From assembly GCA_963682175.1 (NCBI GenBank), contig OY821770.1, positions 19,436,501 to 19,500,500 of the forward strand: 64,000 bases of DNA, given 5' to 3'. The DNA comes from Triglochin maritima (lineage: Eukaryota; Streptophyta; Magnoliopsida; Alismatales; Juncaginaceae). The translations under genes and the position numbers were made by a program. Under the pieces are notes generated by a model. That model saw only the letters and a list, made by a program, of their open reading frames with translations, did no database searches and was not told where the DNA came from. Below, piece by piece: positions 2,362 through 62,699 of the stretch (position 1 is its first letter; the number at the start of each line of letters is the position of its first letter).

Positions 2362-3473
2362 GATATGTCGGGTTTTATGTAGAAAATATGACACATGGGG
2401 TGAACAAGCAAAATCAAAATTATGTTGTGATTAATAACATAATTAGAATCTAAATTAAATTCATATGTGATGTAAATATTATGGGGTGTAATGATTTATC
2501 ATTACATAGGATAATATGTTACATAAGTTGTGAATTTACTACTAATCCCGAAATTTCAAATTTTGTAGGTGTTAAATCGAAATTCGACAAGTCTGCAGTA
2601 CTGTGCAACAACGGTCGACCGATTAACAGTAAACAGTCGACCGATCGGTGCACGGTCGACCGGACACGTCTCGACCGATAACATGGAATTTTCGTCTGTT
2701 CGGCACGGTCAACCAAATCTATCGGTAGGTCGACCGAACATTGCGATGAATTATTTTATTGTTGCGAACGGTCGACCGAAACTTGGTTCGAACGGTCCAC
2801 CGAACCTCCAAACGGTCGACCGGTCCAGACGGTTTCTGCATAATTAATTTAAGAATTAATTACATTATGCATAAAATTGGTCCATAATTGATTTGATTCT
2901 TGGCTGAGATTATTTGTTAGCAAATATTGGATGGTTAGATAAAAGTTTGCATGAAATCATGGGCAAGATGTTGTACTTGAATAAGTAATTTGGAGAGAAC
3001 TTATAAATACAATTTATCTCATTACCTCATTAATTAATTCATTATTTTCTCATGCAAAAATCTCTCTCCTTAATTCTCCACGAAATTTTCCTTAATTCTT
3101 AAGATTAGTTTTAGTTTTCAGAGATATTTTTCTTAAGGGAACTAAAGAGGGGTTAATAATTGGATTCTAAACCCTATTGGAGATTGAGAGACTAGCTCTT
3201 CTCTCTCCAATCTTGTTTAGAGTTTGGTGAATACTCGGAGATAATCCACCGGGCGATTCGACCTGCAACGCAACTCCGAATCTTCAAGAGGTTTTAGAGA
3301 ACCTTTAGGTAAGATCCTCTTTGCAATTGTTTGTTTGTTCTAATGCATGTTAAATAATTAGGGCAAACAAATGCATGTCCATATGAAAATCGAAGAAAAT
3401 ATGAATGCTTCGATCCTATATGTTTATAAAATTTCGAAAATTATATACATTTAATAGGGCACGAAATACAATA
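2350..3473 (+). repeat. Partial 3' LTR of A1
   Basis: Matches the solo LTR at 6046-8135 from its position ~913 to its end. It contains a box array (2612-2822), a TATA box TATAAATA at 3002-3009 and the U5 tail. The end reads ...GAAATACAATA instead of the canonical ...CCAACA. The first ~900 bp of U3 is missing at the junction with pol. Confidence 0.8.
2612..2822. promoter_or_regulatory. CGGTCGACCG palindrome array in the A1 LTR
   Basis: Exact boxes start at 2612, 2653, 2769 and 2813, with one-base variants at 2634 and 2793. Spacings between close neighbours are 22, 19, 24 and 20 bp. The array lies about 180-390 bp upstream of the LTR TATA box, so it occupies the U3 enhancer position. Function is not known. 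Confidence 0.7.
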
Positions 3474-4510
3474 GATTTACATCACATATGAATTTAATTT
3501 AGATTCTAATTATGTTATTAATCACAACATAATTTTGATTTTGCTTGTTCACCCCATGTGTCATATTTTCTACATGAAACCTGACACATCTTATGAACTC
3601 AAAATCCTCAATTCTTGTTTCCTAGTTTTGTGGTGTGACTTATGAGAGGATCTAAACGAAGTTGACAGTGATATTAAGAGCTTAATACCACAAACTATAA
3701 GCGGTATCTAGCTACACATTATAGCTCCCAATTAGTTAGATGTCTTAATTCCACTCGAACCAAAACCCGATCCATTTAGTGTTGGAGTATACTACTTGTG
3801 TTTGTCCCTTGCCTCATGATATTAAGAATACACAAAAAGTAGTTTTGTGTCATCTTTGTATTAGTATTCATTTCTTAATCTCTTTAAGCTAGTTACAAAT
3901 ATGTGACTTAACTCAAATCACATTGTGCACATTATTACTTTGCTTTATCAAGGAACCACTAATATCATCACTCAATTAAGAGGGGCAATGATAATCTTTT
4001 GACTAACTATTTTCTCCAACGAAAGTCATACTTAACCAACTAATGCCTTTACACTACACTTATCGATAGTTTAAGACACTAGTCTAATCAAGCATTTCTT
4101 AAGTGATCAGATATAAGTCTCATATCAATGGACCAAAGACACAATAAAATATTAATGACACAGAAACACATTTCTATAATATTTTACTTATTAGGTCCAT
4201 ACAGTATACAAAAGTAATATTTTTCTTTTTTGTGTACCCGTGTTGTCACTCACTTGTAGAGCTAGAATGATCTATGACCAACACGACAATCTTAACTCGG
4301 TAATTAATGTCCCATGTTAATTACCATGATTGCGAATATCTTTTGTTTTATGTAAACCAATATATTTTAGAGCTCTACGGTTAAGGACCAAGGGACTCTT
4401 CCTTAACACTTCTAAAAGATGAATAACACAAACAAGGAACAAAATGATTTCTCATTCAATTCATAATAATTGACATTTAAAAGTAAAACTTTTAGAACAC
4501 ATTCCCTTCA
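3474..4510 (-). repeat. Truncated 3' LTR of A2 (5' half of U3)
   Basis: On the minus strand it begins TGAAGGGAATGTG at 4510 and runs about 1,037 bp, half the full 2,090-bp LTR. It stops just before the region that holds the boxes in full copies. Its far end (3474-3600) is an inverted copy of 2350-2476 in A1's LTR, so two half LTRs meet tail to tail at 3473/3474. Confidence 0.8.
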
Positions 4511-4521
4511 ATCTCCCACTT
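4511..4521 (-). other. Polypurine tract of A2
   Basis: On the minus strand AAGTGGGAGAT lies directly before the LTR start TGAAGGG. The same string occurs at the equivalent place in A3 (10097-10107). Confidence 0.75.
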
Positions 4522-4559: not shown

Positions 4560-6045
4560 AAAACATTAATAACTAGGGTAACCTTCTCAAATCACCTATC
4601 AAGCCAATCCACATGGATCCTTGGATCCATGGACTCGAAATATATTTCGTCTCTTAGCTTGGTATGAAGGTTTGTTGAATGGATTAGTTGTGTCACTGTT
4701 GTGCCCACCTATTTATTTTGTCTTTCGTTGGTGGTTGAGTTAGCCGTAGTGATATTACTCCTAACTACACTAGCTCATACGTCCACCTCAGATAATGATA
4801 ACGCATCATTATTCCAACCTCCCATTGTCAAGAATTCCTATGAGAATTGCATCAAAATAGCCCTCGACTATTTTCTCATTTGTCTTCCATAAATAAGAAC
4901 CTTATCTTTAGTCCGGTTAAGGTACTTTAGAATATTCTTGACCACAATCCTATGCTTAGACTTCCGTCGGATTGGTGACTACCTGTCATGCGTAGAGAAT
5001 ACGAGATATCGAGTCTTGTGCAAGTCATCGTATACATGATCCTTCCTTTTGCCGAAGCATAAGGGATATCTTCATGTACTCCAAGTCTTTGCGTGATTGA
5101 GCACGTTGAGACTCCTTGAGTTGCACATTTATACTCGTATTTATTGGCACATTGTTTATATTGGAATTGTTTACCCTGAACCTTTCCAAGACCTTGTCAA
5201 TGTATGCACGTTGACTTAGGCCAATGAGTCTATGAGATGTATCTCAATGTATCTTGATTCTCAAGATGTGTTGAGCCTCATCCACTTCTTTTCATTGAAA
5301 ATGCCGATTTCAATGAAATTTCTCGTTTGTTAATGCAAAGGTACATGATTGCTCATGTGCAATATGTCATCGACATACAAGATCAAAAGTACGACATGAC
5401 TCCCACTAATCTCTTTGTATCAACAAGGTTTTCCTTTACTTTGAATGAAGTGAATCTTCTTCACCTCTTTGTCAAAGCGTTTGTTCCAACTCCTTGATGC
5501 TTGCTTCAATCCATAAATGGATTCTCGAAACTTGCATTTCTTCTCGCTATTATTTGGATCATCAAAACCTTGAGGTTGTACCATGTACATATCCTCATCC
5601 AAGTTCCCGTTTAAGGAACGCCATTTTGATATCCATCTTCCATATCTCACAATTGTGAAATGCGGTAATAGTGAGCATAATCCGAATAGATTTTTAATAT
5701 GACAACCTCTCAAAAATCTCACCAAAGTCAATTTCTTGAATTTTTGTATAACTTTTGCTACAAGCCTTGCTTCGTAGGTTGTCAAGTTACTATCCATGTC
5801 TATCTTCCTCCTAAAAGCTCATTTATACCAAATGATATTTTCCCTTGAGGAAGGCAAATCAAGTTCCATACTTGATTATCATACATGGATTTTACTTCGG
5901 ATTCCATGGCCTTTAACCCCAGTTTGCAGTCTTTTCTTTCCATTGCTTCTTGGAAGGTCGAGGAATCTTTGGTATCTAGTACCATGATCTCATGAAGTCC
6001 CACATACTTATTGGGTTTCTTCCTTTCCCTCATTGACCTTCTTAG
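4560..6045 (-). pseudogene. Degraded copia reverse transcriptase/RNase H (A2)
   Basis: The minus strand is alignable with A3 from about 10140 to 11838, but with many stops and indels. The longest open pieces are 5420-5797 (reverse transcriptase start, with MYMVQPQGFDDP and YGLKQASRSWNKRFD) and 5800-6033 (the stretch before reverse transcriptase, with EAMERKDCKLGLKAMESE). RNase H, nearer the LTR, is unreadable as protein. It is clearly more decayed than A3 and so probably the older copy. The frame continues at 8136 beyond the nested LTR. Confidence 0.8.
6041..6045. repeat. Target-site duplication CTTAG (left copy)
   Basis: CTTAG at 6041-6045 is repeated at 8136-8140, flanking the solo LTR. 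A3's uninterrupted pol has a single CTTAG at the matching place (near 11838), which confirms the insertion. Confidence 0.9.
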
Positions 6046-7217
6046 TGAAGGGAATGTGTTCTAAAAGTTTTACTTTTAAATGTCAATTATTATGAATTGA
6101 ATGAGAAATCATTTTGTTCATTGTTTATGTTATTCGTCTTTTGGAAGTGTTGAGGAAGAGGCTCTTGGTCCTTAACCGTAGAGCTCTAAAAGATATTTGT
6201 TTACATAAAACAAAAGAGATTCACAATCATGGTAATTAACATGGGACATTAATTACCGAGTTAAGATTGTCGTGTTGGTCATAGATCATTGTAGCTCTAC
6301 AAGAGAGTGACAACACGGGTACACAAAAGAGAAAGATATTACTTTTGTATACTGAATTGACCTAATAAGTAAAATGTTATAGGAATGTGTTTCTGTGTCA
6401 TTAATATTTTACTGTGTCCTTGGTCCTTTGATATGAGACTTATATCCGATCGCCTAAGGAGTTCTTAATTAGACTAGTGTCTTGAGCTATCGATGAGTGT
6501 AGTGTAAAGACATTAGTTGGTTAAGTATAACTTTCGTTGGAAAAGATAGTTAATCAAAAGATTATCATTGCCCCTCTTAATTGAGTGATGATATTAGTGG
6601 GCCCCTTGATAAAGCAAAGTTATAATGTGCACAATGTGATTTGAGTTAAGTCACATATTTATAACTAGCTTAAAGAGATCAAGAAATGAATACTAATACA
6701 AAGATGACACAATACTACTTTGTGTGTATTCTTAATATCATGAGGCAAGGGACGGACACAAGTGGTGCACTCCATCACTAATTGGATCGGGTTTTGGTTC
6801 GAGTGGAATTAAGACATCTAACTAATTGGGAGCTATAATGTGTAGTTAGATACCGCTTATAGCTTGTGATATTAAGCTCTTAATATCACTGTCAACTTAG
6901 TTTAGATCCTCCCATAGGCCACACCACAAAACTGGGAAACGAGTAATGGGGATTTTTGAGTTCATAGGATGTGTCGGGTTTCATGTAGAAAATATGACAC
7001 ATGGGGTGAACAAGCAAAATCAAAATTATGTTGTGATTAATAACATAATTAGAATCTAAATCAAATTCATATGTGATGTAAATATTATGGGGTGTAATGA
7101 TTTATCATTACATAGGATAATATTTTACATAAGTTATGAATTTACTACTAATCCCGAAATGTCAAATTTTGTAAGGGTTAAACCGAAATTTGACAAGTCT
7201 GCAGAACAGTGCTCCAA

Positions 7218-7486
7218 CGGTCGACCGGTTAGCAGTAAACGGTCGACCGATCGGGCACGGTCAACCAGATGTGTCTCGACCGATAACAGGGAATTTTCAT
7301 ATGTTCGAATGGTCGACCGAATGTAATCGGTCGGTCGACCGAACATAGCGATGGAATAATTCTTTTTACGAACGGTCGACCGAGTTATTGAACGGTCGAC
7401 CGAGTTATTGAACGGTCGACCGAGTTATTGAACGGTCGACCGAAACCTGGTTCGAGCGGTCGACCGAACCTCCAAACGGTCGACCG
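7218..7486. promoter_or_regulatory. Box array: nine exact CGGTCGACCG palindromes
   Basis: Exact 10-bp palindromes start at 7218, 7240, 7332, 7373, 7393, 7413, 7433, 7457 and 7477. Close spacings are 22, 20, 20, 20, 24 and 20 bp, near two turns of the helix. The four from 7373 form a perfect 20-bp tandem repeat (box plus AGTTATTGAA). Each box holds three CpG sites. The array ends 180 bp before the TATA box. Confidence 0.8.
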
Positions 7487-7665
7487 ACCCAGACGGTTAA
7501 TGCAGGATTAATTTAAGAATTAATTAAATCATGCATGGAATTAGTCCATAATTGATTTAATTCATGGCTAAGATTGTTTGTCAACAAACAATGGATGGTT
7601 AGATGGAATTTTGCATGAAATCATGGGCAAGAGGTTGCACATGAATAGGTAATTTGGAGAGAACT

Positions 7666-7673
7666 TATAAATA
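7666..7673 (+). promoter_or_regulatory. LTR TATA box
   Basis: TATAAATA is conserved in all family A LTRs seen here (3002, and the minus-strand equivalents at 16247 and 16933). It lies downstream of the box array, as expected for the U3 promoter of a copia LTR. Confidence 0.7.
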
Positions 7674-8135
7674 CAAGTTATCTCATTACCTCCTTAGTTG
7701 AATTAATTCATTGTTTTTCATGCAAAATCTCTCTCCTTAATTCTCCACGAAATTTCCACAAATTCTTAAGTTTAGATTTAGTTTCAAGAGGTCATCTTCT
7801 CAAGGAAACTAAAGGGGTTAGTAATTGGATTCTAAACTCTATTGAAGATCGATAAGCTAGCACTTCTCTCTCCAATCTCGTTTAGAGTTTGGTGAAATCT
7901 CGGAGGCATCCGGCGCAGCAACAAGCATCCACAGCGTCTCCGAATCTTCAAGAAGTTTTAGAGAACTTCTAGGTATGAATTTCGTAGACTCATGTTTGTT
8001 TTAATAAGTTTTTAAAACTAGTTATTGAAACAAACCAATACATGCATGAAATAAATCGTAGAAAATTGTAGATGATCCTTATTATACATAAAAATTTCGA
8101 AAATATATATGTATAATTAAACATGAAATCCAACA

Positions 8136-8680: not shown

Positions 8681-10096
8681 TGCATTAACCGTCTGGGTCG
8701 GTTGACCGTTTGGAGGTTCGGTCGACCGCTCGAACCAGGTTTCGGTCGACCGTTCAATAACTCGGTCGACCGTTCGTAACAAGAATTATTCCATCGTTAT
8801 GTTCGGTCGACCGACAAATTACATTCGGTCGACCGTTCGAACATATGAAAATTCCCTGTTATCGGTCGAGACACATCCGGTTGACCGTGCCCGATCGGTC
8901 GACCGTTTACTGCTAACCGGTCGACCGTTGGAGCACTGTTCTGCAGACTTGTCAAATTTCAGTTTAACCCTTACAAAATTTGACATTTCGGGATTAGTAG
9001 TAAATTCATAACTTATGTAAAATATTATCCTATGTAATGATAAATCATTACACCCCATAATATTTACATCACATATGAATTTGATTTAGATTCTAATTAT
9101 GTTATTAATCACAACATAGTTTTGATTTTGCTTGTTCACCCCATGTGTCATATTTTCTACATGAAACCCGACACATCCTATGAACTCAAAAATCCCCATT
9201 ACTCGTTTCCCAGTTTTGTGGTGTGACCTATGGGAGGATTTAAACTAAGTTGACAGTGATATTAAGAGCTTAATATCACAAGCTATAAGCGGTATCTAGC
9301 TACACATTATAGCTCCCAATTAGTTAGATGTCTTAATTCCACTCGAACCAAAACCCGATCCAATTAGTGATGGAGTGCACCACTTGTGTCCGTCCCTTGC
9401 CTCATGATATTAAGAATACACACAAAGTAGTATTGTGTCATCTTTGTATTAGTATTCATTTCTTGATCTCTTTAAGCTAGTTATAAATATGTGACTTAAC
9501 TCAAATCACATTGTGCACATTATAACTTTGCTTTATCAAGGGGCCCACTAATATCATCACTCAATTAAGAGGGGCAATGATAATCTTTTGATTAACTATC
9601 TTCTCCAACGAAAGTTATACTTAACCAACTAATGTCTTTACACTCATCGATAGCTCAAGACACTAGTCTAATTAAGAACTCCTTAGGTGATCGGATATAA
9701 GTCTCATATCAAAGGACCAAGGACACAGTAAAATATTAATGACACAGAAACACATTCCTATAACATTTTACTTATTAGGTCAATTCAGTATACAAAAGTA
9801 ATATCTTCCTCTTTTGTGTACCCGTGTTGTCACTCACTTGTAGAGCTACAATGATCTATGACCAACACGACAATCTTAACTCGGTAATTAATGTCCCATG
9901 TTAATTACCATGATTGCGAATCTCTTTTGTTTTTATGTAAACCAATATCTTTTTAGAGCTCTACGGTTAAGGACCAAGAGCATCTTCCTCAACACTTCCA
10001 AAAGACGAATAACATAAACAAGGAACAAAATGATTTCTCATTCAATTCATAATAATTGACATTTAAAAGTAAAACTTTTAGAACACATTCCCTTCA
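8680..10096 (-). repeat. 3' LTR of A3, truncated
   Basis: Begins on the minus strand at 10096 with TGAAGGGAATGTG next to the polypurine tract and runs 1,417 bp to 8680. There it stops just past the box array (about 8690-8940), so the TATA box and R/U5 are missing. Its boxes match those of the solo LTR, including the units with GTTATTGAA spacers. Confidence 0.85.
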
Positions 10097-10180: not shown

Positions 10181-13100
10181 TCAATCATCAAGCCAATCTA
10201 CATGGTTCCTCAAACCCATGGACTCGAAATGCATTTCGCCCTTGGCTTGGGATAAGGGTTTTGTGAATGGATCAGCTGTGTTGCTGTTGGTGTCCACCCA
10301 TAACAGATTTATTTTGCCTTCGTCGATGAGGTCACGCGTCACGAAGTACTTACGATCCATGTACTTCACTTTGTGGTGTGATTTGGGATCCTTGATTTGG
10401 GAGATAGACGCACTATTGTCGCAAAATAGCTCTATTGGTCCATCGCTCGAGGGAACTACTCCAAGCTCTTCAAGGAACTTCTTAATCCACACTCCTTCCT
10501 TGCTCGCTTCAGCGACAGCCATTACTTCGGAAGTAGTGGTTGAGTCGGCCGTAGTGCTTTGCTTTCAACTACGCCAACTCACAGCTCCACCATTCAGAAG
10601 GAAGACGTATCCTGATTGCGACTTTCTATAGTCTGGATCACTCATGAAACTCGCATCCGAGTAACCCTCAGAAATCAATTCCCTTTGTCCTCCATAAACA
10701 AGAATCTTATCCTTAGTCTGGTTAAGGTACTTCAGGATATTCTTGACCGTAGTCCAATGCTCAGGACCTGCGTTGGATTGGTGACGACTTGTCACGCTTA
10801 GAGCATACGAGACATCGGGTCTTGTGCAAGTCATCGCGTACATGATCGACCCAATTGCCGAAGCATATGGGACATCGTTCATGTACTCTAAGTCCTTACG
10901 TGATTGCGCACGTTGAGACTTCTTGAGCTGCACACCCATACTCATTGGCACACTGCCTTTTTTGGAGTTGTTCATCTTGAACCTTTCCAAGACCTTGTCA
11001 ATGTATGCACGTTGACTGAGGCCAATGAGTCTACGGGATCTATCTCGATATATCTTGATTCCCAAGATGTATTGAGCCTCACCCATGTCTTTCATTGAAA
11101 ATGCAGATTTCAATGAACTTCTCGTTTGATCAAGCAAAGGAATATGATTACCCATGAGCAATATGTCATCGACATATAAGATTAGGAATACTACATGGCT
11201 CCCACTAACCTTCTTGTATATACAAGGTTCTTCCTTACTTTGAATGAAGTGAAGCTTCTTCACTTCCTCGTCAAAGCGTTTGTTCTAACTCTTTGATGCT
11301 TGCTTCAATCCATAAATGGATCTTTGAAGCTTGTATACCTTCTCGCTATTCTTTGGATCTTCAAAACCTTGAGGTTGTACCATGTACACATCCTCCTCCA
11401 AGTTCCCATTAAGGAATGCCGTTTTGACATCCATTTGCCATATTTCATAATCATGAAATGCGGCAATAGCGAGCATGATCCGAATAGACTTGAACATGGC
11501 AACCGGTGAAAAAGTTTCATCATAGTCAATTCCTTGAACTTGAGTGAAACCCTTCGCTACAAGCCTCCTTTGTAGGTTGTCAAGTTCCCATCCATGTCCA
11601 TCTTCCTCTTGAAAACTCATTTATTTGAATGACCTTTTTCCCTTGAGGAATGTCAACCAAGTTCCACACTTGATTATCATACATGGATTCTATTTCGGAT
11701 TCCATGACCTTAAGCCATAGTTTGGAGTCTTCCCTTTCCATTGCTTCTTGGAAGGTCAAGGGATCATTGGTATCTAGTACCATGATCTCATGAAGTCCCA
11801 AATACATATCGGGTTTCTTCTTTTCCCTTGTTGACCTTCTTAGTTCTTTTGGTTCTTCTCGTGTCTCTCGAACTTCTTCCACAATTTCTTGAGGAATCGA
11901 TTCATGCTCAACTCTTGAACGTACACTTGGTGGGGACGATTGAGATTCTCTCACAATTTCTTGTGATGGTCTCTCGCTCACGCTCCCACTAACCAAAGGA
12001 ATCTCGGTTGGGCCTTCATGATCTTGAATGTCATCATTCATGTCATGATCTTGTAGAGTATCTTAAGTTTCCTCAAGCACAACCCTACTACCACTACTTT
12101 TTACTCTTTCTAGAAATTCCTTTTCCAGAAATGTGGCATCCCTCTCTACAATCACTCGATTGGAGGTGATATGCCAAAAGTAGTATCCTCTTGTCTCACG
12201 AGGATAACCAATAAAGAAGCACTTATCCGCTTTTGGTTGAAGTTTGGTCGACATCAATTTCTTGACGTAAGCCTCACAACCCCAAATCTTGAGAAAATTG
12301 AGCTTAGGTGTTTTACCACTCCATAGTTCATAAGGAGTTTTCTCCACGGATTTGGATGAAACATTATTTAGTGTGTAAGCCGCAGTTTGTAGTGCATAAC
12401 TCCAAAAGTAAAGAGGTAGTTCCGCATGACTCATCATTAACCGAACCATGTCGAGCAATGTCCTATTCCTCCTTTCGGATACCCCATTCCACTGAGGTGT
12501 ACCGGGAGGGGTGAGTTGAGGTACAATACCAAACTCCTTTAGGTATGAGTCAAATTCGGCACTTAAGTACTCACCTCTACGATCCGTTCGTAGAGACTTG
12601 ATTTTCTTGTCGAGTTGGTTCTCTACTTCATTCTTGAATTCTTTGAACTTGTCAAAGGATTCACTTTTGTTTCTCATTAGATAAACATAGCCATAACGGC
12701 TATAATCATTCGTGAACGTAATGAAGTACCTGAAACCATCTCGTGCACTAGTACTCATTGGACCACATACATCGGAATGTATTAAATTCAACAAGCCATT
12801 CGCCCTTGGACATTCCTTCTTGAAAGGCTTTTTGGTCATTTTTCCCATTAGACATGGTTGGCACGTCTCCAATGATTTAAAATCAAGTAGACCAAGAAGG
12901 TTAGCTTCTTGCAATTTCTTGATGCGCTTTTCATTTATGTGACCAAGACGATAGTGCCACAAGAGAGTATCATTCTCGTGAGTGGTCTTAAGTCTTTTGT
13001 TATTGATATTAAAGATTTGCTTATTATTCAATTCAAGCAAATAGAGACCATTCCTTATGAACGCATTTGCATAGAAAACACCATTCTTCGATTTAGACAG

Positions 13101-14291
13101 ACAAGAATTTGAAATATTTATATTAAAATTATCCATATCCATACATGATACAGAAATAATATTCTTGCTAATCGAAGGTACATATTAAACATTCTTTAGA
13201 CATAAATTTAAACCACTACATAATTGAAGCACCACAGAATCTTGTGCAACCGCAGACACGTTCGCACCATTTCCGACCTTCAATTCTACCTCGTTCCTTA
13301 TGAGTTCCTTCCTATCCATGAGTAGCTGCACATTAGAAACTATGTGAGCACAAGATCCAGTATCTATTACCCAATCCTGGACAGAGGTGGCTAAATTTAT
13401 TTCAATAACAAATATACCTTTGGCCTTTTTGGGGCGCCGTCGTTCAATCACTCCGTTGTCAAGGTCTTCCTTGTACTTGGGGCAATTTGGCCGAATGTGT
13501 CCTTTTTCACCGCAGTGAAAGCACTCCGTATTGGGAGTTGGAGATTTCTTAGACTTCCCCCTCGAGGCACTCTTTTGAGCACCTCCTACTCCCTTGCTCT
13601 TGATTGAACCACTTTTGGTAGATTTGCCCTTTCCTTTACCAATCTTGTGGCTCCTCCCATGGATGGCAAAGACTTGCTTGTCCCTACCCTTACCCATGTC
13701 AACTTCAGCAGTTTTGAGAGCGTTGTGCAGCTCCTCAAGACTCACCCCTTTTTCACGCACGTGGTAGTGCATCACAAAGTCCTTAAAGGACGGGGCTAGA
13801 GAGCCAAGAATCAGATCTTCAGCAATGTCCTCAGGCATTGGCGAAGAGAGCTTTGCCAACTTCTCAAGGTACCCTTGCATCGTGAGAAAATGCATAGATA
13901 CCGATGTTCCCTCCGCCATGTGGCACCTTGTGAGTGCTATGGTGGTCTTATAACGCTCCTTTCGGGCACTATCCATGAACATCTTGGATAAAGCCTCCAT
14001 GGTCTTCTTGGGTTTTGAATCCAAGTATTTCGCTTGAAGCGAGTCACCCATGGATGCAAACATTAGACCGTGAACTTGGTTCTCTTGGTCTTCCCACTTG
14101 GCTTTTGCCTTTTTCTCTTCATCTGTTAATCTCTCATTCCATTTTGGGATTGGACCTTCCAAAATGTGAGATAGTTTCTCAAACTTTAACACAATGTTGA
14201 GCTTGAGTTGCCAACTAATGAAGTTTGAACCATCGTTTGCTAAAGAGTGTTTTTCTATCATGGATCGTACGATAGGTTGGATGTTCGACAT
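10181..14291 (-). pseudogene. Copia gag-pol polyprotein gene with stops and frameshifts (A3)
   Basis: One long frame starts with ATG at 14291 (MSNIQPIV...). It encodes gag with an intact zinc knuckle (CFHCGEKGHIRPNC, near 13500), protease (WVIDTGSCAH), GAG-pre-integrase (HYRLGHINEKR), integrase core (SDVCGP, TDRRGEY, NGVSERRNR: catalytic D, D, E kept, with Arg in place of the usual Gly after TDR), reverse transcriptase (WQMDVKTAFLNG, LYVDDILLMG) and RNase H (CDNSASISQIKDP, DRKYFVTRDLI). In-frame stops lie at 13185-13187, 12063-12065, 11285-11287 and 10565-10567. Two frameshifts lie near 11625 and 11575. At the places compared with A1, the stops look like single-base changes. Protein similarity is continuous across all breaks, so the gene is old but well preserved. 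No product of full length is expected. Confidence 0.9.
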
Positions 14292-15771
14292 TTTTCTACA
14301 AAATAAATCATATGGGTTTTAATGTCAATTTTATGTTTTCAACACATACACATATATCGAATATAAATGTAAATATTGTAAATAAAAATTTTGCCCATAA
14401 ATACAGTAATCCAAGATCCTATCAATTGTAATATAGACTAGCTAAGGGCTATCGAATATATCACAATGTCAAGGTAAGAAAAACTCTTTCTATTCACAAC
14501 CTTTTTGAATTTTAGCAATATTAGCATCTTCAAACTCTTGTGATTCTTGTCGTTTTAATTATGAGGGAATGTGACCTAACCTCGTAAGAAAAGCTCTTTC
14601 CCAAAACCGAGCGAGGGCTCTAGGTAATGTTAAGAAAACTTATTTTCATTTGATACGAGATACGTTTATCCATTGTATTCACAACTAAACATACTTGGGG
14701 TTCACTAGGGTGAAACACACCTCATACATTTAATTGTGGCACAACAACAGACAACCTTTATATCTCCCACTATTCTCAAAGATGGAGGGAGCTATCTCCC
14801 GCTAAGGGCGAGCAGAGTATCCCTCAATCAATGGCTGCTAGTGGATGAAATAAGAAGGAAATTATTCTTAATTTTTGTTGGACATTTTCATATATTTACA
14901 TGTGATTTGTAATTTTAGGTTATCATGCATATTAATATTCATACACATCCTAACATTCACCACATTCATAGCAGAAATTAAAAATAGAAATTAAACATTC
15001 ACACAATCCACATCGTGTGAGTTTATATGTTCTCTTCGATCCACGATCCTCGATCCTTGATCCTTGATCCTCGATCGATGCGCTACAGCGGCGACTTCCT
15101 CTTGCACCGGAGATGTAGATTTTACAGAAAATAAACATGCTCCTCACATTTGATAAAAACCGACTAGTGCAAGTCCTATGTAAAAACCTCTCATATGCAA
15201 ATGCAATTATCTAAAGGAAGAAAATTTCGGCTTTTACATACAAATAAGCCCCTGTATAATAATAATTACATACATTTGTAGTGTCTGATTTGGAACATAT
15301 AAACTCACAATCCTGCAAAGCAACTCAAGCATCCATGCACGCAATTGCTATAAACTACAGAATCTAATTTATCAACCATCTAGAATCCTAAACAATTCTT
15401 TGAAAAATATTTTGAAATCCATTAAAAACATTTTTCATTCATCCATAGTTCAAAAATTAATTTTGAACCGCTGTCCATCCAATTTCCAATGGAAAGATGA
15501 ACTGCAGTTTTTCGGTTTTGTTGATTCTCTTACAAAATAATCGTTTTTAAATAAAACGAAATTATTGTAAGTTAGACTAATGTCTTAATCTTAATTCTAA
15601 TAATTACATGACATGTTTTAAAACTCTTAAAACATTCAGACGAATTATTACAGAGAATTATATCAACAAAACATCCATACACCGAAAAACCGGTAAACCG
15701 AATTGTTTAAATCCTAGATGGCAAACTAAATTCGTTTACAGCCTTAAATCATAAGAAAATTGAACCCTAAT
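14292..15771 (-). other. Untranslated leader of A3
   Basis: About 1.5 kb between primer-binding site and gag ATG, without a long frame. The part next to the LTR matches A1's leader. Around 15040-15080 there is a short run of imperfect GATCCTTGA/GATCCTCGA repeats. Long leaders of this size are usual for large copia elements. Confidence 0.7.
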
Positions 15772-15783: not shown

Positions 15784-16246
15784 CTGTTGGATTTCATGTT
15801 TAATTATACATATATATTTTCAAAATTTTTATGTATAATAAGGATCATCTACAATTTTCTACGATTTATTTCATGCATGTATTGGTTTGTTTCAATAACT
15901 AGTTTTAAAAACTTATTAAAACAAACATGAGTCTACGAAATTCATACCTAGAAGTTCTCTAAAACTTCTTGAAGATTTGGAGACGCTGTGGATGCTTGTT
16001 GCTGCGCAGGATGCCTCCGAGATTTCACCAAACTCTAAACGAGATTGGAGAGAGAAGAGCTAGCCTATCGATCTTCAATAGAGTTTAGAATCCAATTACT
16101 AACCCCTTTAGTTTCCTTGAGAAGATGACCTCTTGAAACTAAATCTAAACTTAAGAATTTGTAGAAATTTCGTGGAGAATTAAGGAGAGAGATTTTGCAT
16201 GAAAAACAATGAATTAATTCAACTAAGGAGGTAATGAGATAACTTG

Positions 16247-16254
16247 TATTTATA
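16247..16254 (-). promoter_or_regulatory. Inner TATA box of the A3 5' LTR
   Basis: TATAAATA on the minus strand, in the promoter half next to the primer-binding site. It is one of two equal TATA boxes in this LTR. Confidence 0.6.
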
Positions 16255-16932
16255 AGTTCTCTCCAAATTATCTATTCATGTGCAACCTCTTGCCCATGAT
16301 TTCATGCAAAATTTCATCTAACCATCCATTGTTTGATGACAAATAATCTTAGCCACGAATTAAATTAATTATGGACCAATTCCATGCATGATTTAATTAA
16401 TTCTTAAATTAATCCTGCAGAAAACCGTCTGGACTGGTCGACCGTTTGGATGAAGCGGTCGACCGTTCGTAACAGGAACTGTTTCATCTCAATGTTCGGT
16501 CGACCAACCGATTACACTCGGTCGACCGTTCGAACAGATGAAAATTCCCTGTTATCGGTCGAGACACATCCGGTCGACCGTGCCACATCCGGTTGACCGA
16601 TCAACAGTAAACGGTTGACCGTTTGTGCACAGTTTTGCAGTTTGTCAAATTTCGGTTAAACCCCTACAAAATTCGACATTTCGGGATTAGTAGTAAATTC
16701 ATGGCTCAAATTTCGGTTAAACCCCTACAAAATTTGACATTTCATGACGTTTGACCAATCTCCAATAGGGTTTAGAATCCAATTACTAACCCCTCTTTAG
16801 TTTCATTGAGAAAAAGATCTCTGAAAACTAAAACTAAACTTAAGAATTAAGGAAATTTCGTGGATAATTATGGAGAGAGAAGTTTGCACAAGAAGATAAT
16901 GAATTTATTAATGAGGTAACGAGATAAACTTG

Positions 16933-16940
16933 TATTTATA
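16933..16940 (-). promoter_or_regulatory. Outer TATA box of the A3 5' LTR
   Basis: The second TATAAATA on the minus strand, 686 bp from the inner one, produced by the internal duplication. Transcripts from here would contain the inner box array. Confidence 0.6.
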
Positions 16941-18500
16941 AGTTCTCTCCAAATTACCTATTCATGTGCAACCTCTTGCCCATGATTTCATGCAAACTCC
17001 CATCTAACCATCCATAATTTGCTCACAAATAATGTCAGCCACGAATTAAATCAATTACGGATCAATTCCATGCATGATCTAATTAATTCTTAAATTAATT
17101 CTACAGAAAACCGTCTGGACCGGTCGACCGTTTGGAGGTTCGGTTGACCGTTCGAACCAAGTTTCGGTCGACCGTTCGCAACAATAAAATATTTCATCGC
17201 AATGTTCGGTCGACCGACCGATAGATTCGGCCGACAGTTTCACACAGATGAAAAATCCATGTTATCGGTCGAGACGTGTCCAGTCGACCGTGCACCGATC
17301 GGTTGACCGTTTACTGTTGTTCGGTCGACCGTTGAGCACTGTTCTGCTGATTTGTCAAATTTTGGTTTTACCCCTACAAAATTTGACATTTCGGGATTAG
17401 TAGTAAATTCACAACTTATGTAACATATTATCCTATGTAACGATAAATCATTACACCCCATAATACTTACATCACATATGAATTTCATTTAGATTCTAAT
17501 TATGTTATTAATCACAACATAATTTTGATTTTGCTTGTTCACCCCATGTGTCATATTTTCTACATGAAACCCGACACATCTTATGAACTCAAAATCCTAA
17601 TTTCTTGTTTCCTAGTTTTGTGGTGTGACCTATGAGAGGATCTAAACTAAGTTGGCAGTGATATTAAGACCTTAATCTCACAAGCTATAAGCGGTATCTA
17701 GCTAGACATTATAACTCCCAATTAGTTAGATGTCTTAATTCCACTCGAACCAAAACCCGATCCATTTAGTGATGGAGTGCACCACTTGTGTCCGTCCCTT
17801 GCCTCATGATATTAAGAATACACACAAAGTAGTATTGTGTCATCTTTGTATTAGTATTCATTTCTTGATCTATTTAAGCTAGTTACAAATATGTGACTTA
17901 ACTCAAATCACATTGTGCACATTATAAATTTGCTTTATCAAGGGGCCCACTAATATCATCACTCAATTAAAAGGGGCAATGATAATCTTTTGACTAACTA
18001 TTTTCTCCAACGAAAGTCATACTTAACCAACTAATGCCTTTACACTACATTTATCGATAGCTTAAGACACTAGTCTAATCAAGCATTTCTTAAGTGATCG
18101 GATATAAGTCTCATATCAAAGGACCAAGGACACAGTAAAATATTAATGACACAGAAACACATTTCTATAATATTTTACTTATTAGGTCTATTCAGTATAC
18201 AAAAGTAAAATTTTCTCTTTTGTGTACCCGTGTTGTCACTCACTTGTAGAGCTACAATGATCTATGACCAACACGACAATCTTAACTCGGTAATTAATGT
18301 CCCATGTTAATTACCATGATTGCGAATATCTTTTGTTTTATGTAAACCAATATATTTTAAAGTTCTACGGTTAAGGACCAAGAGTCTCTTCCTTAACACT
18401 TCTAAAAGACGAATAACACAAACAAGGAACAAAATGATTTCTCATCCAATTCATAATAATTGACATTTGAAAGTAAAACTTTTAGAACACATTCCCTTCA

Positions 18501-35397: not shown

Positions 35398-35436
35398 GCT
35401 AAATTACGATTAAGTAAATGAAATTAGCAACATAAT

Positions 35437-35448
35437 GCTCTGATACCA
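35437..35448 (-). other. Primer-binding site of Y
   Basis: TGGTATCAGAGC on the minus strand, two bases inside the LTR edge at 35451. Confidence 0.9.
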
Positions 35449-35450
35449 AT

Positions 35451-47037: not shown

Positions 47038-47623
47038 TGTGAGGACCCTAACCTTTTTATTGGACTAATGGTGATTAGGTGGGCTTAATGGAGGGGTTTG
47101 CACGGGAAAGGAGGAAACGTGATGGTGGGATGGTGTAGGTGCATAGTTGTGGTGTTTGAAGAGATGGTTGGACTGTTGGAGGTATGGTGGAAAGCATGGG
47201 CTGGGTTGCTTGGTTGGAGAATGTGAGAGTTGTGCTTGTGAAGCCAACGTCTCCTTTCCTCCTCTTCTTTCTTCTTTCTTCTTCTTCAACTCCTATCTCT
47301 CTTCAAGCCTCCATCCATTTCCCTCCTTCAAATCGTCAGACCGGTGGTGAGGGTTGCAGAGCAAGGCGCATGAGGCAAGGAAGTGTTGGGCGTGGCGCGT
47401 GGAGGAGGACGTGTGTGAGGTTGCGGTCCGGAGGTGTTGTAGTCGGAGCTCCGGTGTTCTTCGTCGTTCTTCAAGAGAGGTATGCCAAGTTCTTGCATTA
47501 TAGGCCTTTAGTGATCACCCACGTTGGGGTGATGTTGTGGTCGGTCGCGGGAGGTCGGACACCTCGCCGGCGACGAGGATTTGGCGTAAAAACATTGGCT
47601 GGCGCGAGGTTGAAGACGACTGA

Positions 47624-48117
47624 CGGTCGACCGGGTCCCTCGGACGGTCGACTGAACGTAGTGTTTTTTTGACTGTCTGTTATGTTTCGGTCCACCGGGT
47701 TCTTGTCTTCGGTCGACCGGAACTTAAGTGTACTGGACCTTTTATTGTTGTGTGCGATCGACTGTTTTATGACTTAGAAATATTAGGATGCCCTGGTAGG
47801 TTTCGGTCGACCGAGACCCCTGAGTCGGTCGACCGATAGATTTGATTTTGATGTTGACCAGACTCCGGATTTTGACCTCGTTCGGTCGACCGGTTTTAGA
47901 CTTTCGGTAGACCGTTGGGACTTAAGTTTTACGCAAAGAGTTTCACCGTTGTAGACGTTTCGGTCGACCGATTCCCTTGTGGAAGCGGTAGACCGAGTTG
48001 TCACTTTCGGTCGACCGTTTCCCTTGTGGAAGCGGTCGACCGATTGTCACTTTCGGTCGACTGATTCCCTTGTGGAAGCGGTCGACCGAGTTGTCTCTTT
48101 CGGTCGATCGTTTTGAT
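47624..48117. promoter_or_regulatory. Box array in X4 with a 47-bp higher-order repeat
   Basis: Boxes at 47624/47645 (21 bp), 47804/47826 (22 bp) and others. From about 47960, a two-box unit with a CCCTTGTGGAAG linker is repeated three times at about 47-bp steps. Several boxes have CG changed to TG or CA. Confidence 0.78.
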
Positions 48118-48919
48118 AGGACAAAATTCCTGGTCCCTTTTTGAATGCCAACTCTGTCCACGGAAACCCGTGTCCTCGCCTTGTGCGTGAGCCGAGAGGT
48201 GACGGTGGGCGCGTTACGCGTGCTTGCCCAGGGACCGCCGTGTGGAAGAGTGTGGGTGTTCGGGACGCGTCACCTCCATGTATGGATCGTGACTAATATG
48301 ATGGATTGGTTTGACTCGTGTTTGAGTAGAAGCCTGAGGGATTGCGGATCCCATTGCTTCAGCGGGCACGCAACTGTCATTAGGTGAAGTGACTACCAGC
48401 CTGGATGACTACGGAAGCCGCTACCCTGCTTTTATAGCGGCGGAGTTGGTGTCTGCACGTAGAGCTCGATGACCCTGCGGAATTTGGTTCGGATCTGTCG
48501 ATTGTCTGGCCCTTGGTGTGGCGGATATGTTCGACTGGCCTTGATTGGCAGTGATTGCACGAGCCCGTGCGGCCTGTGGCGGCGGGAGGGCCCCTGTGTG
48601 GCAGCAGGGAGGATCGCACGTAGCCTGTGTGGTTGCGACGATGGACTGCCGATGATGTGTTCCGGCAAGTAGCTCAATTGGGCACCTATCGAGTGAGATA
48701 CCATGCGGTCTGTGTGGCGTCGGTGATGGACCGACCTGAGCGACGGCTCCGTTGGTGTGGTGGTGGACCACGATGTTTTCAGATCTGATTCTACCTGCGC
48801 GGAATTACGAACGCCTCCTCACCGATCCCTTGGCTTGTGTAGTCACGTGTGGGGATGTGTTGCGTATTGTCCGCTAGACCGTATGTGCCTACGGTAGGTC
48901 TCTACGGAGACCCGATGTT

Positions 48920-49098
48920 TGGACCGTGCGACCCGTGTGGCGGCGGCGATGCTGTGGACCGTGTGTCCTTTGTGGTACCGGTGGTTGTGGACCGTGCGGC
49001 CTGTGTGGCGACGGCGATGTTGCGGACCGTTGGGCCTGTGTGGCAGCGGTGACGATTGTAGACCGCGGGGCATGTGTGGTAGCGGGAACGATTGCAGG
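48920..49098. repeat. Minisatellite in X4, about five 34-bp units
   Basis: Units begin GGACCGTG and contain CTGTGTGGC-GCGG-like sequence ending GATGTTG. The Cys/Trp-rich frames here come only from this repeat. Confidence 0.8.
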
Positions 49099-49536
49099 AC
49101 GGATGTCCAGTTTTGCCCTTGTGGGAATGTTGTTTACTGCTTTGTATTTCATGCCATGCTATACTAGTATGATATGGCATATAGGTGAGCTTGTCATACG
49201 GGGTTTCCTTATGGAAACTCATACATTGTTGTTATGTTTATTTTCAGGATTGCGTTAGGTTCCGGCGGGTGGTGACTGAGGGAGATTGCACTTTGGGACT
49301 GGATCATGTTGTCTGTCTATTTTAGGTTGTCGTGATTACGTGTTTTATGTATTACGTATTCTTATGTAATCACTCTTTTGACAAACTCTTATGTAATATG
49401 GTGCAACAGATGTATTTGGGTATTTCTTTCAGTAATGTCCCCACTCTTGATGGTTTTATCCCCGTGTTTCTCTTGATTTTAAAAGTTTAAATTTTCCGTT
49501 GTTCGGGGATGTTACAGTTAGGATCCTAACATGAAA

Positions 49537-56567: not shown

Positions 56568-56569
56568 TA

Positions 56570-56930: not shown

Positions 56931-57594
56931 TGTGGGATCCTAATCCTAATTGGGTTTTGTTGGTGATTAGGTGGTGATTAGGGGGAATGGTGATGGATGG
57001 CTTGGATTGAAGATGGATGGATGGAGGGTTGAGATGGAGAGGAGATGAGATGTGTGGTGGAGATGGAAGGAAGGAAATGGATGGTGAGGATGTGTTTTGG
57101 GGAGATATTTAGGAGTTTTCCCTCTCTCTCTCCCTCTCGTTGCTCTCTCTCTCTCTCACTCGCGATTCTCTCTCTCTCATGCAGTGGTGCTCCGGTGAAG
57201 AAGAGGTGATCTCCGGCGAAGTCGAGTTCGGAGCCGTTGTGGTGGAGGTGAGTTGGTCGGTTGATAGCTCATCTCGTAGTTTCCGTTTTGGTTCTCTCTC
57301 TCTCTACCTAACTCGTGTTCTGTGGTCATGGTTGGGTGTTGGAGGTTGCCGGAGGTGGTGTTGTGGCTGTGGATCGTCGAGGAGGCGATTGATCGTCGTT
57401 TGGGCGCGAGGTTCGTCGACGGATCGTGATTTGGGGAGACGTGCTCGTGGAGGCGTCGTCGCGGTTCTTCAAAGGCTTCTTCAAGCCTTCCGGTATGTCA
57501 AGCTCGCTCACTTAATTATCGTGAGTATTTGGAAGTCGACGGTAGGCCTTTCGGCTCGTCGCGAGTAAATGTGCAGCAGTTTTCACTGCCTGAT

Positions 57595-58290
57595 CGGTCG
57601 ACCGGTTGGTGCAAACGGTCGACCGTTCGTGAAGAGAATTCGGGTTCTGCCTCAAATCGCCGAACGATGCCCTTGGGGCGGTCGACCGATCGTGCGTAGG
57701 AGGCAAGCCTGGTGAGATTCGGTCGACCGGGTCCCCTTTGCCGGTCGACCGTGTGCACCGTCATGGGTCGGATAGGGCGTTGACCATCTAAACGGTCGAC
57801 CGCCTCTATGACTTCGTCCGACCGTGACTTAAGTGGATGGAGTGGTCGGTTCGACCGAATGTGGTTTCGGTCGACCAGACCTGTGTGCTGAGCGTGGGGA
57901 ATGCTCTGCTGGAATTCGGTCGACCGAGGCGAGCTCGGCGTTCGATCGGATTCGTGGTGCGAGTAAGGGATTATTTTCTGGTGGGATTCGGTCGACCAAG
58001 AGTGCTCTGGTGTTCGACCGAATCCGTTGTAGAGTTGTGGGTTTTGTCCCTGGTGACTTTCGGTCGAACGGCCCCCCTTTGTCGTTCGACCGATTGGTCA
58101 TTTTGTTCGGTGAACCTGGGAGTTGACCATCTAAACGGTCGACCGATCCCTTGACTTTAGTTCGACCAAACGAGTGCGGTGGGTGGGAATCGGTCGACCG
58201 ATGGAGTGCCGGTCGATGCGATTGCCCTGTATTTGCTTGATTCGGTCGACCGGGACTTTTGGTTCGGTCGACCGTTTGTGTCCAGTTTTG
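57595..58290. promoter_or_regulatory. Box array in X2
   Basis: Among the densest arrays of exact CGGTCGACCG in the window. Close pairs include 57595/57616 (21 bp) and others with 12-base linkers (22 bp). It lies ~490 bp downstream of the likely TATA box and so in the predicted transcript. Confidence 0.78.
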
Positions 58291-58386
58291 CACTATGGAG
58301 GTGCTGTCGTTGTGGTCGTCCGTGTGGGGCGAGTGTGGTGCCGATGTTCTTCCGGCAAGTGTGCTAGGGTGCACGAGTGTTGCGGC

Positions 58387-58772
58387 GGTTGGTTGAAAAA
58401 GACCTGGAGCCCCGTAACTGTGTGAGAGGTGCGGTTGGTTGAAAAAGACATGGAGCCCAGCTAGTCTGTGCGGGGTTGGTTGAAAAAGACCTGGAGCTCC
58501 GTAGTGCGTTCAGGTTGGCTGAAAAAGGCCTGGAGCCTGAGCAGGGACCGCGTGTAGGGGTTGGTTGAAAAAGACCTGGAGCCCTTAGACGTTTAGGTTG
58601 GTTGAAAAAGACCTGGAGCCCTTGGTCATGTCGTGGTAGCTGCGGTTGGTTGAAAAGGACCTGGAGCCCAGCTTGGCGACGAGTGTGTGTTGTAGTGGTT
58701 GGTTGAGATTAGACCTGGAGCCCCGTGACTGTGGTGTGTGCTGTGGTTGGGTGAAAGAGCCCTGGAGCCTAG
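58387..58772. repeat. Minisatellite in X2, nine units of GGTTGGTTGAAAAAGACC
   Basis: The core GGTTGGTTGAAAAAGACC-TGGAGCCC is repeated nine times with variable linkers of about 10-25 bp (period about 37-52 bp). It occupies the place where X4 has an unrelated 34-bp repeat. Confidence 0.9.
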
Positions 58773-58854
58773 CCCGTTGAGATGCTTTTCTTGTTTAGTA
58801 GAATTGCTTGCTAGGGTGTCTTTCAGTTCATGTATTTAGAGTTTGGCATACGGG

Positions 58855-58870
58855 GTTTCCTTCTGGAAAC
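58855..58870. promoter_or_regulatory. Conserved inverted repeat of X LTRs (X2 copy)
   Basis: GTTTCC-TTCT-GGAAAC. The same 6-4-6 inverted repeat with similar flanks occurs at 23398-23413, 46358-46373, 49203-49218 and, with one arm base changed, 37142-37157, always 274-298 bp from the LTR end. It could form a small RNA hairpin. Confidence 0.7.
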
Positions 58871-59158
58871 TCAGGCATGTTGCATGTTTACTTTCAGGCC
58901 GTGATCGGCGATAGGGGGTGGTGACCGAGGAGAGGAGCACCGCTACCGGATCCAGCTTTCTCTCAGTTGAGGTCGAGTGATTACTGCTTCCATTTGTATA
59001 GTCTTTTGATGTAATCACAACTTTTGAAATACTCTGATGTTTATATATATATATTATATGTTGGTGCACCTGTGTTTAGTATTTGCGTGTTATCCTCTGT
59101 TGATTGTGTGTTATTAAAATTTTAAATTTTCCGCTGTGTTGAGGATGTTACATTAACT

Positions 59159-60607: not shown

Positions 60608-60612
60608 AAGCG

Positions 60613-62699
60613 TATAGGATTTCGTGCCCATATATATGTATATATATATTTTTTATAATCACATGCATACAAGATCAATTCCCATATTTTCGACGATTTC
60701 ATGTACATTATTTTATATTTATTCTCATATCATCTAATCTACATATATATTAAAATAAATAATAGGCGATCATACCCAAAGGTTCTCTAAAACCTTTATG
60801 AAGAATCGGAGTTGCATTGCCCGTTGAATCGTCCGTCGATTTGCCTCCAAGTGTTCACGAAACTCTAAACAAGATTAGAGAGAAAGGAGTTAGTCAATCA
60901 ATCTCTAAATCAAGGTTAATTAGAATCTAGCTAATAACCCCTTTAAAGCGCATTGAGAATTTAATCTCCAAAACTTGAATAATTAAGAGAATTTTCGGAT
61001 GGATTAGTGGAGTGGTTAGGGAGAGAGGATGTTTTGCATCAATTAAAACAAGTAGGGAGAGGAGACCTATTTATATATTCTCCTAACACCCACATCATGG
61101 GAAATCCGCTTACCCATGATCTTTTTATTTTCTTTCATTTAAACCAATCACAAATTGACACATAATCATCCTTATTTATGTTTGACCATAAATATATTAA
61201 ATCTAACCCATGATCAACACTAATCTCTTAATAATTCTAGCAAAATTGTGTCCACCGGTCGACTGAAATTAACCAATCAATCGACCAATCTAGCACTATA
61301 AAAGTTACTGTGATTTTTCGGTTGAACAAAAACGCATAAACGGTCGACCGATTCAACATGAAAAAAGACTACTAGAAGTTTTCGGTCGGACTGAGCAACA
61401 AGTCGGTCGACCGATTAATACCAAGAAAAGTTCCTGGAAGTTTTTGGTAGACCCACGTGACTACCCAGTCGATCATTCACGAACGCGGAAGCTATTGTGA
61501 ATATTCGGTCCACCGGTATCTGAAAATGTTCCACCGTTTTGCCCGATGTTTGACTTTATCAAATTTTGGATTTATATCCAACAAACTTTGATCTTTGGGG
61601 TTTTTAGCAAATTCACATATCATGTAATACATTATCATATGTAATGTCAAAACATCACACCCCATAATACATACATCTCATATGAATTTAGTTATGATTC
61701 TAATTATGTCATTTTCACGACATATTAATTTTATCGATTCACCACTTGTATGATATTTCACTTGAAACCCGATGCATCATATGAACGTAAAATCAAACTT
61801 CTTGTTTCCTAATTTTACTGTGTGGCCTATAGGAGGATCTAAGCTATATTGACAATGATATCAAACACTTAATATCACAAACTATAAGCGGTTTCTAGCT
61901 ACACAATATAGTTACCTAATTAGCAAAGATGTTTTATTCACTCGAACTAAATACGATCCATTTAGTGATTTAAGGAACATCACTTGTGTCTATCCCTTAC
62001 CTCATGATATTAAGAATATTTAACAAAGTAGAAATGTGTCACCTTTGTATTCTATATTCATTTCATGATTTCTTAAGCTAATTATAAATATGTGACTATA
62101 CATAAGTCACATTGTGCACATTAAAATTTTGCTTTATCAAGGGGCCACTAATATTATCACTCAAGTCAAGAGAGACAATGATAATTTTTTGACGAACTAT
62201 CTTTTCCAGCACAAGTTATGTTTAACCAATTATTGCCTTTATCACTATGCTTAATGATAAGTTTTAACAATAATCAAATTAAATACTTCTTATGTGAAAA
62301 GACATAAGTCTCATATCTTAGGATTCAAGACACAGTGAAACATTAATGTCACATAACATAATTCCATAATGTTTCACTTGCTAGGTCTATTCAACATATA
62401 AAAGTAATGTTCTTCTTCTTTTATATACTCGTGTCATTAAATATTTGTAGAGCTACAATACTCTTTAACCAACACGACAATCTTATCTCGGTAATTAATG
62501 TTCCTTGTCAATTACCATGATTGTGAATAACTTTCGATTTATGTAACATTATCTTTTATTGCTCTACGATTAATGATCAAGAGCATCTTTCTTAACACTT
62601 TTAAAAAAACGAATACATTAATCAAGAAACAAAATGTTTGCACATTTAATTCATAATAATTGACATATAAAAAAATACTTTTAGAATACATTCCCTTCA
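60613..62699 (-). mobile_element. Diverged solo LTR of family A (A4), about 2,087 bp
   Basis: On the minus strand starts TGAAGGGAATGTATTC at 62699 and follows the family A LTR along its full length, ending near ...GGCACGAAATCCTATA (60613) instead of ...CCAACA. Length equals that of the 6046-8135 LTR. Flanks AAGCG (60608-60612) and AAGAG (62700-62704) may be a target duplication with one change. The box array (about 61255-61510) is present but worn, with exact boxes at 61341 and 61404. This is the oldest-looking family A copy here. Confidence 0.78.
61255..61515. promoter_or_regulatory. Worn box array in the A4 LTR
   Basis: Box starts at 61319/61341 (22 bp) and 61383/61404 (21 bp) keep the phasing although several boxes are mutated. 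Confidence 0.65.

Follow-up and report, generated by a model that had tools for sequence, protein, structure and literature searches.

The same palindromic box in the long terminal repeats of copia and Ty3/gypsy retrotransposons of Triglochin maritima

Box arrays at the locus

The 64,000-base stretch of the Triglochin maritima genome considered here (contig OY821770.1, positions 19,436,501 to 19,500,500; “the window”) contains long terminal repeats (LTRs) of several retrotransposon families, and these LTRs carry arrays of a 10-letter palindrome, CGGTCGACCG, which we refer to as “the box”. There are 55 exact copies in the window and none in shuffles; a degenerate pattern, CGGTNNACCG, occurs 80 times, with 0.27 expected. 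The LTR-derived parts of families A, X, Y and Z, 22,968 of the 64,000 bases as delimited here, hold all 55 exact copies and 79 of the 80 degenerate ones. Across the genome that contains the window (G000; 1,063,122,952 bases), the exact box is found 359,535 times, versus 90 times for the reversed letters, which are likewise palindromic. An earlier note on this DNA described box arrays in the LTRs of these four families and expected the motif to be less frequent outside LTRs. Both points hold, and the phenomenon extends further than the note described. The carriers include Sirevirus-like copia, other copia and Ty3/gypsy elements, and we regard the box as a probable protein-binding element that unrelated LTR lineages have taken up repeatedly. 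The elements concerned, with strand in brackets, are:

2346..4512 (no strand given): rearranged fragments derived from family A LTRs, 4 exact boxes, from self-alignment
6045..8135 (+): family A LTR copy, 9 exact boxes
8681..10096 (−): part of a family A LTR on the 3′ side of the same pol as the 5′ LTR below; polypurine tract (PPT) AGTGGGAG-AT/TG; 7 exact boxes
10184..14318 (−): family A gag-pol remnants with Retrotran_gag_2, rve and RVT_2, the basis for classing A
15785..18500 (−): family A 5′ LTR, with its TG start at 18500 and its CA end at 15785 adjoining the primer-binding site TGGTATCAGAGC
23109..24710 (−): X23, solo LTR of gypsy family X, target-site duplication (TSD) GAAAG
28997..30561 (−): family Z LTR, mostly variant boxes, then TATA; upper end set by likeness to the Y LTR start
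30562..31864, continuing at 36933-37443 past the Y insertion (+): X31, gypsy X LTR fragment, from LTR similarity and the Y target site
31865..36927 (−): family Y element, LTRs 31865-33352 and 35451-36927, TSD TAGCG
47038..49516 (+): X49, solo LTR of gypsy family X, TSD GTTAG, 9 exact boxes at 47624-48088
56931..59152 (+): X57, solo LTR of gypsy family X, TSD TTAAC, 11 exact boxes at 57595-58274
60770..62700 (−): diverged family A LTR, 2 exact boxes, ~78% identical to other A copies

Further loci were sampled or fetched from the same genome and carry L numbers. Twenty 10-kb stretches, evenly placed and with 19,039 bases reading N, were sampled; they contain 34 exact boxes, which puts the motif third among the 1024 palindromic 10-mers, after the two TA repeats. 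Arrays are present in three of the 20 stretches (L009, L011 and L023), a fourth (L027) has a single exact box, and 16 have none. The lone box in L027, at position 7350, lies within a copia gag open reading frame (ORF) and is translated Ile-Gly-Arg-Pro. Among 15 LTR or array regions, 12 have at least 8 boxes (up to one mismatch, or CGGTNNACCG), with fewer in Y_5 (7), A_61 (4) and Z (3). The observed/expected ratio of CpG is 1.13–1.65 in arrays and 0.56–0.96 in the remainder of the same eight LTRs, suggesting that the CpG-rich boxes persist. In a set of 44 array regions from the window and the sampled or fetched loci (13,567 bases), 63 of 123 single-mismatch variants of the box are CpG transitions, in part fitting decay through methylation.

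Classes of box-bearing elements

Families Y and Z are classed as Sirevirus-like. The Y junctions read CA/ATTGG-TATCAGAGC and, at the PPT, AGGGGGAG-AT/TG, with additional PPT-like octamers at 33548 and, with one mismatch, at 33618; these features agree with the junction, PPT and multiple-PPT definitions of Sireviruses in the available part of Bousios et al. 2010 (PMC2829016). In the part of Z that was covered, the junction, CA/TTTGG, has one difference from CA/ATTGG. The Z gag is 74% identical over 120 amino acids to that of L011, a Sirevirus-like locus whose array is located after pol, and 53% to that of Y; L011 and Y share 49%. Since both families are Sirevirus-like, the box in them is ordinary. 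The “four unrelated families” of the earlier note thus reduce to three lineages in the window, i.e., Sirevirus-like copia, copia A and gypsy X. Y is inserted into X31, so that a member of one lineage is nested in another.

Three further families were met outside the window:

L029 and L009: family T, a further copia with a copia gag and box arrays
L031: family K, a further gypsy, RVT_1 at 2e-36, no Chromo match
L032: family P, a further array family without coding evidence, assigned to gypsy by an LTR segment alone

Family A is classed as Ty1/copia but not Sirevirus, and T as a non-Sirevirus copia, both from junctions and pairwise identity. A has the junction CA/GTGG and the PPT octamer AGTGGGAG, with a substitution that the available text of PMC2829016 describes as common in classic elements. 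Its integrase is 52% identical to that of copia L019 and 36% to that of Sirevirus-like L011, and the corresponding values for reverse transcriptase (RT) are 47% and 26%. T is known from its junction, gag and integrase region: the junction in L029 is CA/ACTGG rather than the Sirevirus CA/ATTGG, and the integrase is 40% identical to A and 34% to L011, each over 179 positions. In the A 5′ LTR, CGGTNNACCG boxes lie at 16456-16621 and 17121-17331, and each set is followed in the sense direction by a TATA box, AACTTATAAATACAAG. The same order of array and then TATA is seen in all four copia families (A, Y, Z and T). An internal duplication of the A 5′ LTR, 16071-16701 / 16758-17411, doubles the array and the TATA region. 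Self-alignment places the A fragments 2346-3471 and 3475-4512 in opposite senses.

The X copies in the window have no internal region and were classed by LTR similarity to L030, a complete relative picked by matching box spacing in the genome-wide box positions. L030 has two LTRs identical over 2,192 bases, a TSD (ATCTA) within a TCTA repeat, and a Met-tRNA-type primer site. It encodes Retrotrans_gag, RVP_2, RVT_1 (3.9e-36), RT_RNaseH, Integrase_H2C2 and SH3_Tf2-1, with the integrase after RT, which makes X a Ty3/gypsy family. These features agree with a chromovirus, although the Chromo match is borderline (25.3 bits versus a cut-off of 25.1). L030 and X49 are 73% identical over 753 bases, and X57 and X23 are tied to both by common LTR ends and the segment GGCATACGGGGTTTCC. 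The opposite orientation of X was considered, as both ends read TG..CA, and was rejected when the L030 ORF showed the reverse direction.

In gypsy LTRs, TATA-like sequences are found ahead of the array, at LTR positions 95-174 in X57, X23 and K, and the only such sequence early in the X30 and X49 LTRs is of TTTTTAA type, spotted by eye. X57 has its putative TATA at ~57106, a 5′ splice-site-like GGTATGTC at ~57492 and a 3′ splice-site-like TTTCAGG at ~58895. Six of the seven X-type LTRs (X57, X49, X30, X23, K and P) have GGTATGYC 51-145 bp 5′ of the first box, the start of the seventh, X31, being cut off. By pattern, five of the seven have a GGCATACGGGG segment past the array; the others are X31 and K, where a gapped version is visible. 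In X57, X49, X30 and P this segment is followed by the acceptor-like TTTCAGG. Judged from these sequences, the array of gypsy X apparently lies after the promoter, perhaps held within a leader intron.

Some neighbors of X LTRs were recorded as well. Directly past the X57 boxes, at 58387-58770, is a tandem AAAGACCTGGAGCCC-type repeat, with a related one in L023 and none seen in X49. A SAUR-type gene (Auxin_inducible match) lies at 56123-56530, near an X solo LTR. In L023, an X solo LTR is found near an ORF that resembles part of an LBD protein.

Homology between lineages

We compared 11 LTR or array regions by blastn with the boxes masked (E ≤ 1e-3). The only alignment between lineages is 38 bp long and joins A_61 to the L011 array. 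Within lineages, Y and Z align over 118 bp at 70%, the X types align with one another, and so do the two T copies. Common descent of the LTRs across lineages is therefore ruled out on these regions and accepted for Y with Z and among the X types, in line with the earlier claim that no long homology surrounds the boxes of A, X and Y/Z.

Short matches of box plus spacer appear when masking is omitted, e.g., 24 of 24 bases between T and X49. With the boxes masked, the array spacers of six gypsy and nine copia regions (P being placed with gypsy on its LTR alone) have 22 11-mers in common, whereas 100 shuffles that keep single-base composition average 3.4 and reach 11 at most. Seven of the 22 resemble box remnants. 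Among the shared sequences, GAACTTAAGTGT adjoins the box in X49, X30 and T; GACTTAAGTTTT is common to X49 and L033; 14 bases are common to P and T, and 13 to X23 and Y. Both GAACTTAAGTGT and GACTTAAGTTTT are centered on ACTTAAGT, which is itself a palindrome.

The box arrays in which this second palindrome occurs belong to gypsy X, copia T and Sirevirus-like LTRs; it lies at ~24025, 47722, 47920 and 57827 in the window and also in L011, L029, L030 and L033. Eight of its 20 copies are in the 14 box-bearing regions tested; the analysis covered 333,448 bases, in the whole of which ~12 copies would be expected by base composition.

Box geometry and helical spacing

The gap between half-sites is strict: in the 44 array regions, CGG-N4-CCG occurs 242 times, the N3 form never and the N5 form twice. 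Distances between neighboring boxes were taken from start to start, up to 75 bp, with identical spacers counted once. The resulting 206 distances fall into distinct classes, with 107 at 18-25 bp, 2 at 26-37 bp, 22 at 38-44 bp, 40 at 49-57 bp and 22 at 70-75 bp.

Periods from 8 to 16 bp were fitted, with jittered distance sets as the null. The 147 distances taken from 15 LTR or array regions fit a period of 10.4 bp best (R = 0.527), a value of R reached by none of 2000 jittered sets (mean 0.14, maximum 0.32). Distances >26 bp alone (n = 78) give 10.6-10.7 bp (R = 0.462; 0 of 2000 sets). With one LTR for each of seven types and each distance used once (n = 51), the best period is 10.4-10.5 bp (R = 0.583; null mean 0.29; 0 of 4000 sets). 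In the whole genome, 87,929 pairs of exact boxes are 17-23 bp apart, compared to 7,746 that are 24-30 bp apart, in keeping with helical phasing.

A proposed protein-binding element and its alternatives

We put the probability at roughly 0.6 that the box is a DNA element to which a protein binds, and that unrelated LTR lineages have recruited it more than once. Under this proposal, a dimeric or symmetric DNA-binding protein of the plant would recognize the two inverted half-sites of CGGTCGACCG, CGGT-N2-ACCG, and the arrays would serve LTR retrotransposons as a transcriptional enhancer and/or an anti-silencing platform, acting from upstream in copia and from the leader in gypsy. The repeated motif of Sireviruses would have been taken up in at least three lineages: (i) Sirevirus-like copia; (ii) the non-Sirevirus copia A and T; (iii) Ty3/gypsy X and K. 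An identical box outside Sireviruses, even in gypsy, suggests that it is separable from Sirevirus biology. Arrays would grow by local tandem duplication, with selection favoring boxes near whole helical turns; proteins bound at such positions would face one side of the DNA. The period of 10.4–10.5 bp and the strict half-site gap point to a DNA-level binder, one that could be fished with a single short probe. The first box of a lineage may have been gained by mutation or by exchange. The sequence itself shows what the box is and how often it occurs, that it lies in LTRs, which classes of element carry it, that long LTR homology is lacking, and how the boxes are spaced. We infer that a protein binds the box, that it activates or protects the elements, that one protein serves all lineages and that recruitment came about by convergence, not exchange. 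The earlier note had proposed convergent recruitment of one DNA-binding protein, or else a motif array that spreads between LTR families; helical phasing favors recruitment of such a protein, and the 22 shared spacer 11-mers make spread of arrays a possible alternative.

Several observations weigh against this proposal. A spacing of ~31 bp, i.e., three turns, is nearly missing, which is unexpected under simple phasing. The jittered null keeps the relatedness of the data, in which part of the spacings comes from tandem duplication and the LTRs were picked for carrying boxes, and three of the seven types in the n = 51 test (X57, X49 and K) are related gypsy LTRs; the chance values of the period fit are optimistic for these reasons. 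Pair counts across the genome cover just the classes 17-23 and 24-30 bp. Sixty of the 123 single-mismatch variants are not CpG decay, indicating that degenerate boxes are common. Where the promoter lies is a judgement, since TATA-like matches, some of them weaker, are found on the other side of the array too: after it in X57, X23, X30 and K, and ahead of it in Y and Z. By the pattern used, X49 lacks a TATA altogether. Lastly, the 22 shared 11-mers argue against a purely convergent origin, or for a second shared site.

Those 11-mers are also evidence for a different history, in which template switching, nested insertion or gene conversion carried arrays, spacers included, from one LTR family to another, with divergence afterwards. 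The 24 unmasked bases shared by T and X49 and the nesting of Y in X31 are consistent with such transfer, but the longest masked alignment between lineages is 38 bp, about a third of the shared 11-mers (7 of 22) look like box remnants, the shuffles preserved single-base composition alone, and the palindrome ACTTAAGT may be a second binding site. We consider transfer unlikely on balance. Still less probable is a binder encoded by the elements themselves, i.e., an anti-silencing protein resembling VANC of Arabidopsis whose site other families exploit. The upstream placement in copia and intron-like placement in gypsy are similar to those of VANC21 arrays in the available part of PMC5735166, where, however, the VANC21 motif is rare outside its own family, while the box crosses superfamilies. 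A scan of L030 for frames of at least 100 amino acids also listed a single long frame, the gag-pol of 1,473 residues, all others being at most 225.

We doubt slightly more strongly that the boxes act in RNA, with neighboring copies pairing as transcript hairpins that feed small interfering RNAs, as proposed for maize Sireviruses. Two boxes at a distance of 22 bp would fold into a 10-bp stem that closes a 12-base loop, gypsy X arrays seemingly lie within the transcript, and small RNAs are drawn to palindrome-rich regions of maize Sirevirus LTRs in the available part of PMC10760457. Against this, none of the 35 informative pairs of neighboring CGGTNNACCG boxes, i.e., those with a non-CG center among 116 pairs, is complementary, so that there is no covariation of RNA stems; the spacing follows the DNA helix, and copia arrays precede the TATA box. 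It is highly improbable that one abundant family accounts for most boxes by common descent, or that the arrays are neutral tandem repeats, with drift or methylation bias behind the rest. Tandem periods do exist, such as the 20-bp repeat at 7370-7443 in the A LTR copy 6045..8135 (100% matches) and the repeats spaced ~73 bp apart in the L009 array. Yet neutral CpG-rich repeats should decay, and 359,535 exact copies are present; the sampled arrays belong to five families (T, Sirevirus-like, A, X57-type and X49-type) without long LTR homology across lineages, and the gypsy carrier largely refutes this explanation.

Returning to recruitment of a protein-binding element, a wider version of it is tentative, and we hold it to be possible without favoring it: one host protein may be a shared regulator of much of the retrotransposon load, for which copia and gypsy independently built phased arrays on opposite sides of the promoter, with ~360,000 perfect sites forming a lineage-independent “LTR code” that also lies beside genes as solo LTRs. 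If one factor does serve many families, it would offer a single handle on the expression of much of the retrotransposon content of the genome, and solo LTRs would distribute its sites beside genes.

Other repeats

Three repeats of other kinds were noted. At 44269-44457 there is a 44-bp tandem unit with inverted GACGTCGGT / ACCGAYGTC motifs, presumably of the type found as subterminal repeats in CACTA transposons. A 22-bp minisatellite, consensus AGTTGTCTGTCTGTTCGGAATA, occupies 53162-54201, with ~30 copies at 53537-54201. In L012, and likewise where L014 begins, the palindrome TGTGGCCACA recurs at ~493-bp intervals, suggesting a satellite with a unit of that length; both stretches are rich in N.

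Comparison with known systems

The LTRs of Tnt1 and Tto1 contain tandem cis elements bound by host factors, in few copies and in one family each. Another known system is the Sirevirus repeated motif. The box is not a new motif, since the same 10-mer is published: as far as the available part of Bousios et al. 2010 (PMC2829016) goes, 13 Sireviruses have palindromic repeated motifs, of which 12 share a CGG-CCG core, and the motif of the Vitis Sirevirus (Table 3) is exactly CGGTCGACCG, with 12 copies, 10 of them in the 3′ LTR. That part of the paper calls the motif Sirevirus-specific and absent from classic elements, leaves its role open as of 2010, and reports no common binding site for a single factor. 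The box described here is the same 10-mer, with the same CGG-CCG core, dyad symmetry and CpG richness; the arrays upstream of TATA described there have an apparent counterpart in the copia families here, and in both systems extra copies may follow pol, as in L011. The systems differ in that the box is found here in non-Sirevirus copia (A and T) and in Ty3/gypsy (X and K) as well, contrary to a restriction to Sireviruses, with the gypsy array after a putative TATA; the spacing here also fits 10.4–10.5 bp. Relative to what is available of PMC2829016, neither the box nor its position in copia LTRs is new; what is new is its presence in non-Sirevirus copia and Ty3/gypsy. That paper is the only plant retrotransposon paper, by title, among the matches listed for the string CGGTCGACCG. 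In titles and abstract starts from literature searches, outside which most subscription papers lie, we found no report of the motif beyond Sireviruses, nor of the genome-wide number, the intron-like gypsy placement or helical phasing.

For maize Sirevirus LTRs, the available parts of PMC10760457 and PMC5311732 describe palindrome clusters in the cis-regulatory part and palindrome-rich regions that attract small RNAs. Those palindromes are tied to RNA secondary structure, whereas neighboring boxes in T. maritima lack covariation.

According to the available part of PMC5735166 (Nat Commun 2017), VANC21 binds a 9-base motif that is arrayed in noncoding parts of its own transposable element, both upstream and in introns, and the arrays are linked to tandem repeats. 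The likeness extends to dense arrays of a short motif in noncoding regions of the element, to tandem repetition, and to placement both upstream and in introns. VANDAL elements differ in having a non-palindromic motif in one orientation, in a single family, with a binder encoded by the element. Of the systems that we have seen, VANC appears to be the nearest parallel for arrays in both upstream and intron positions.

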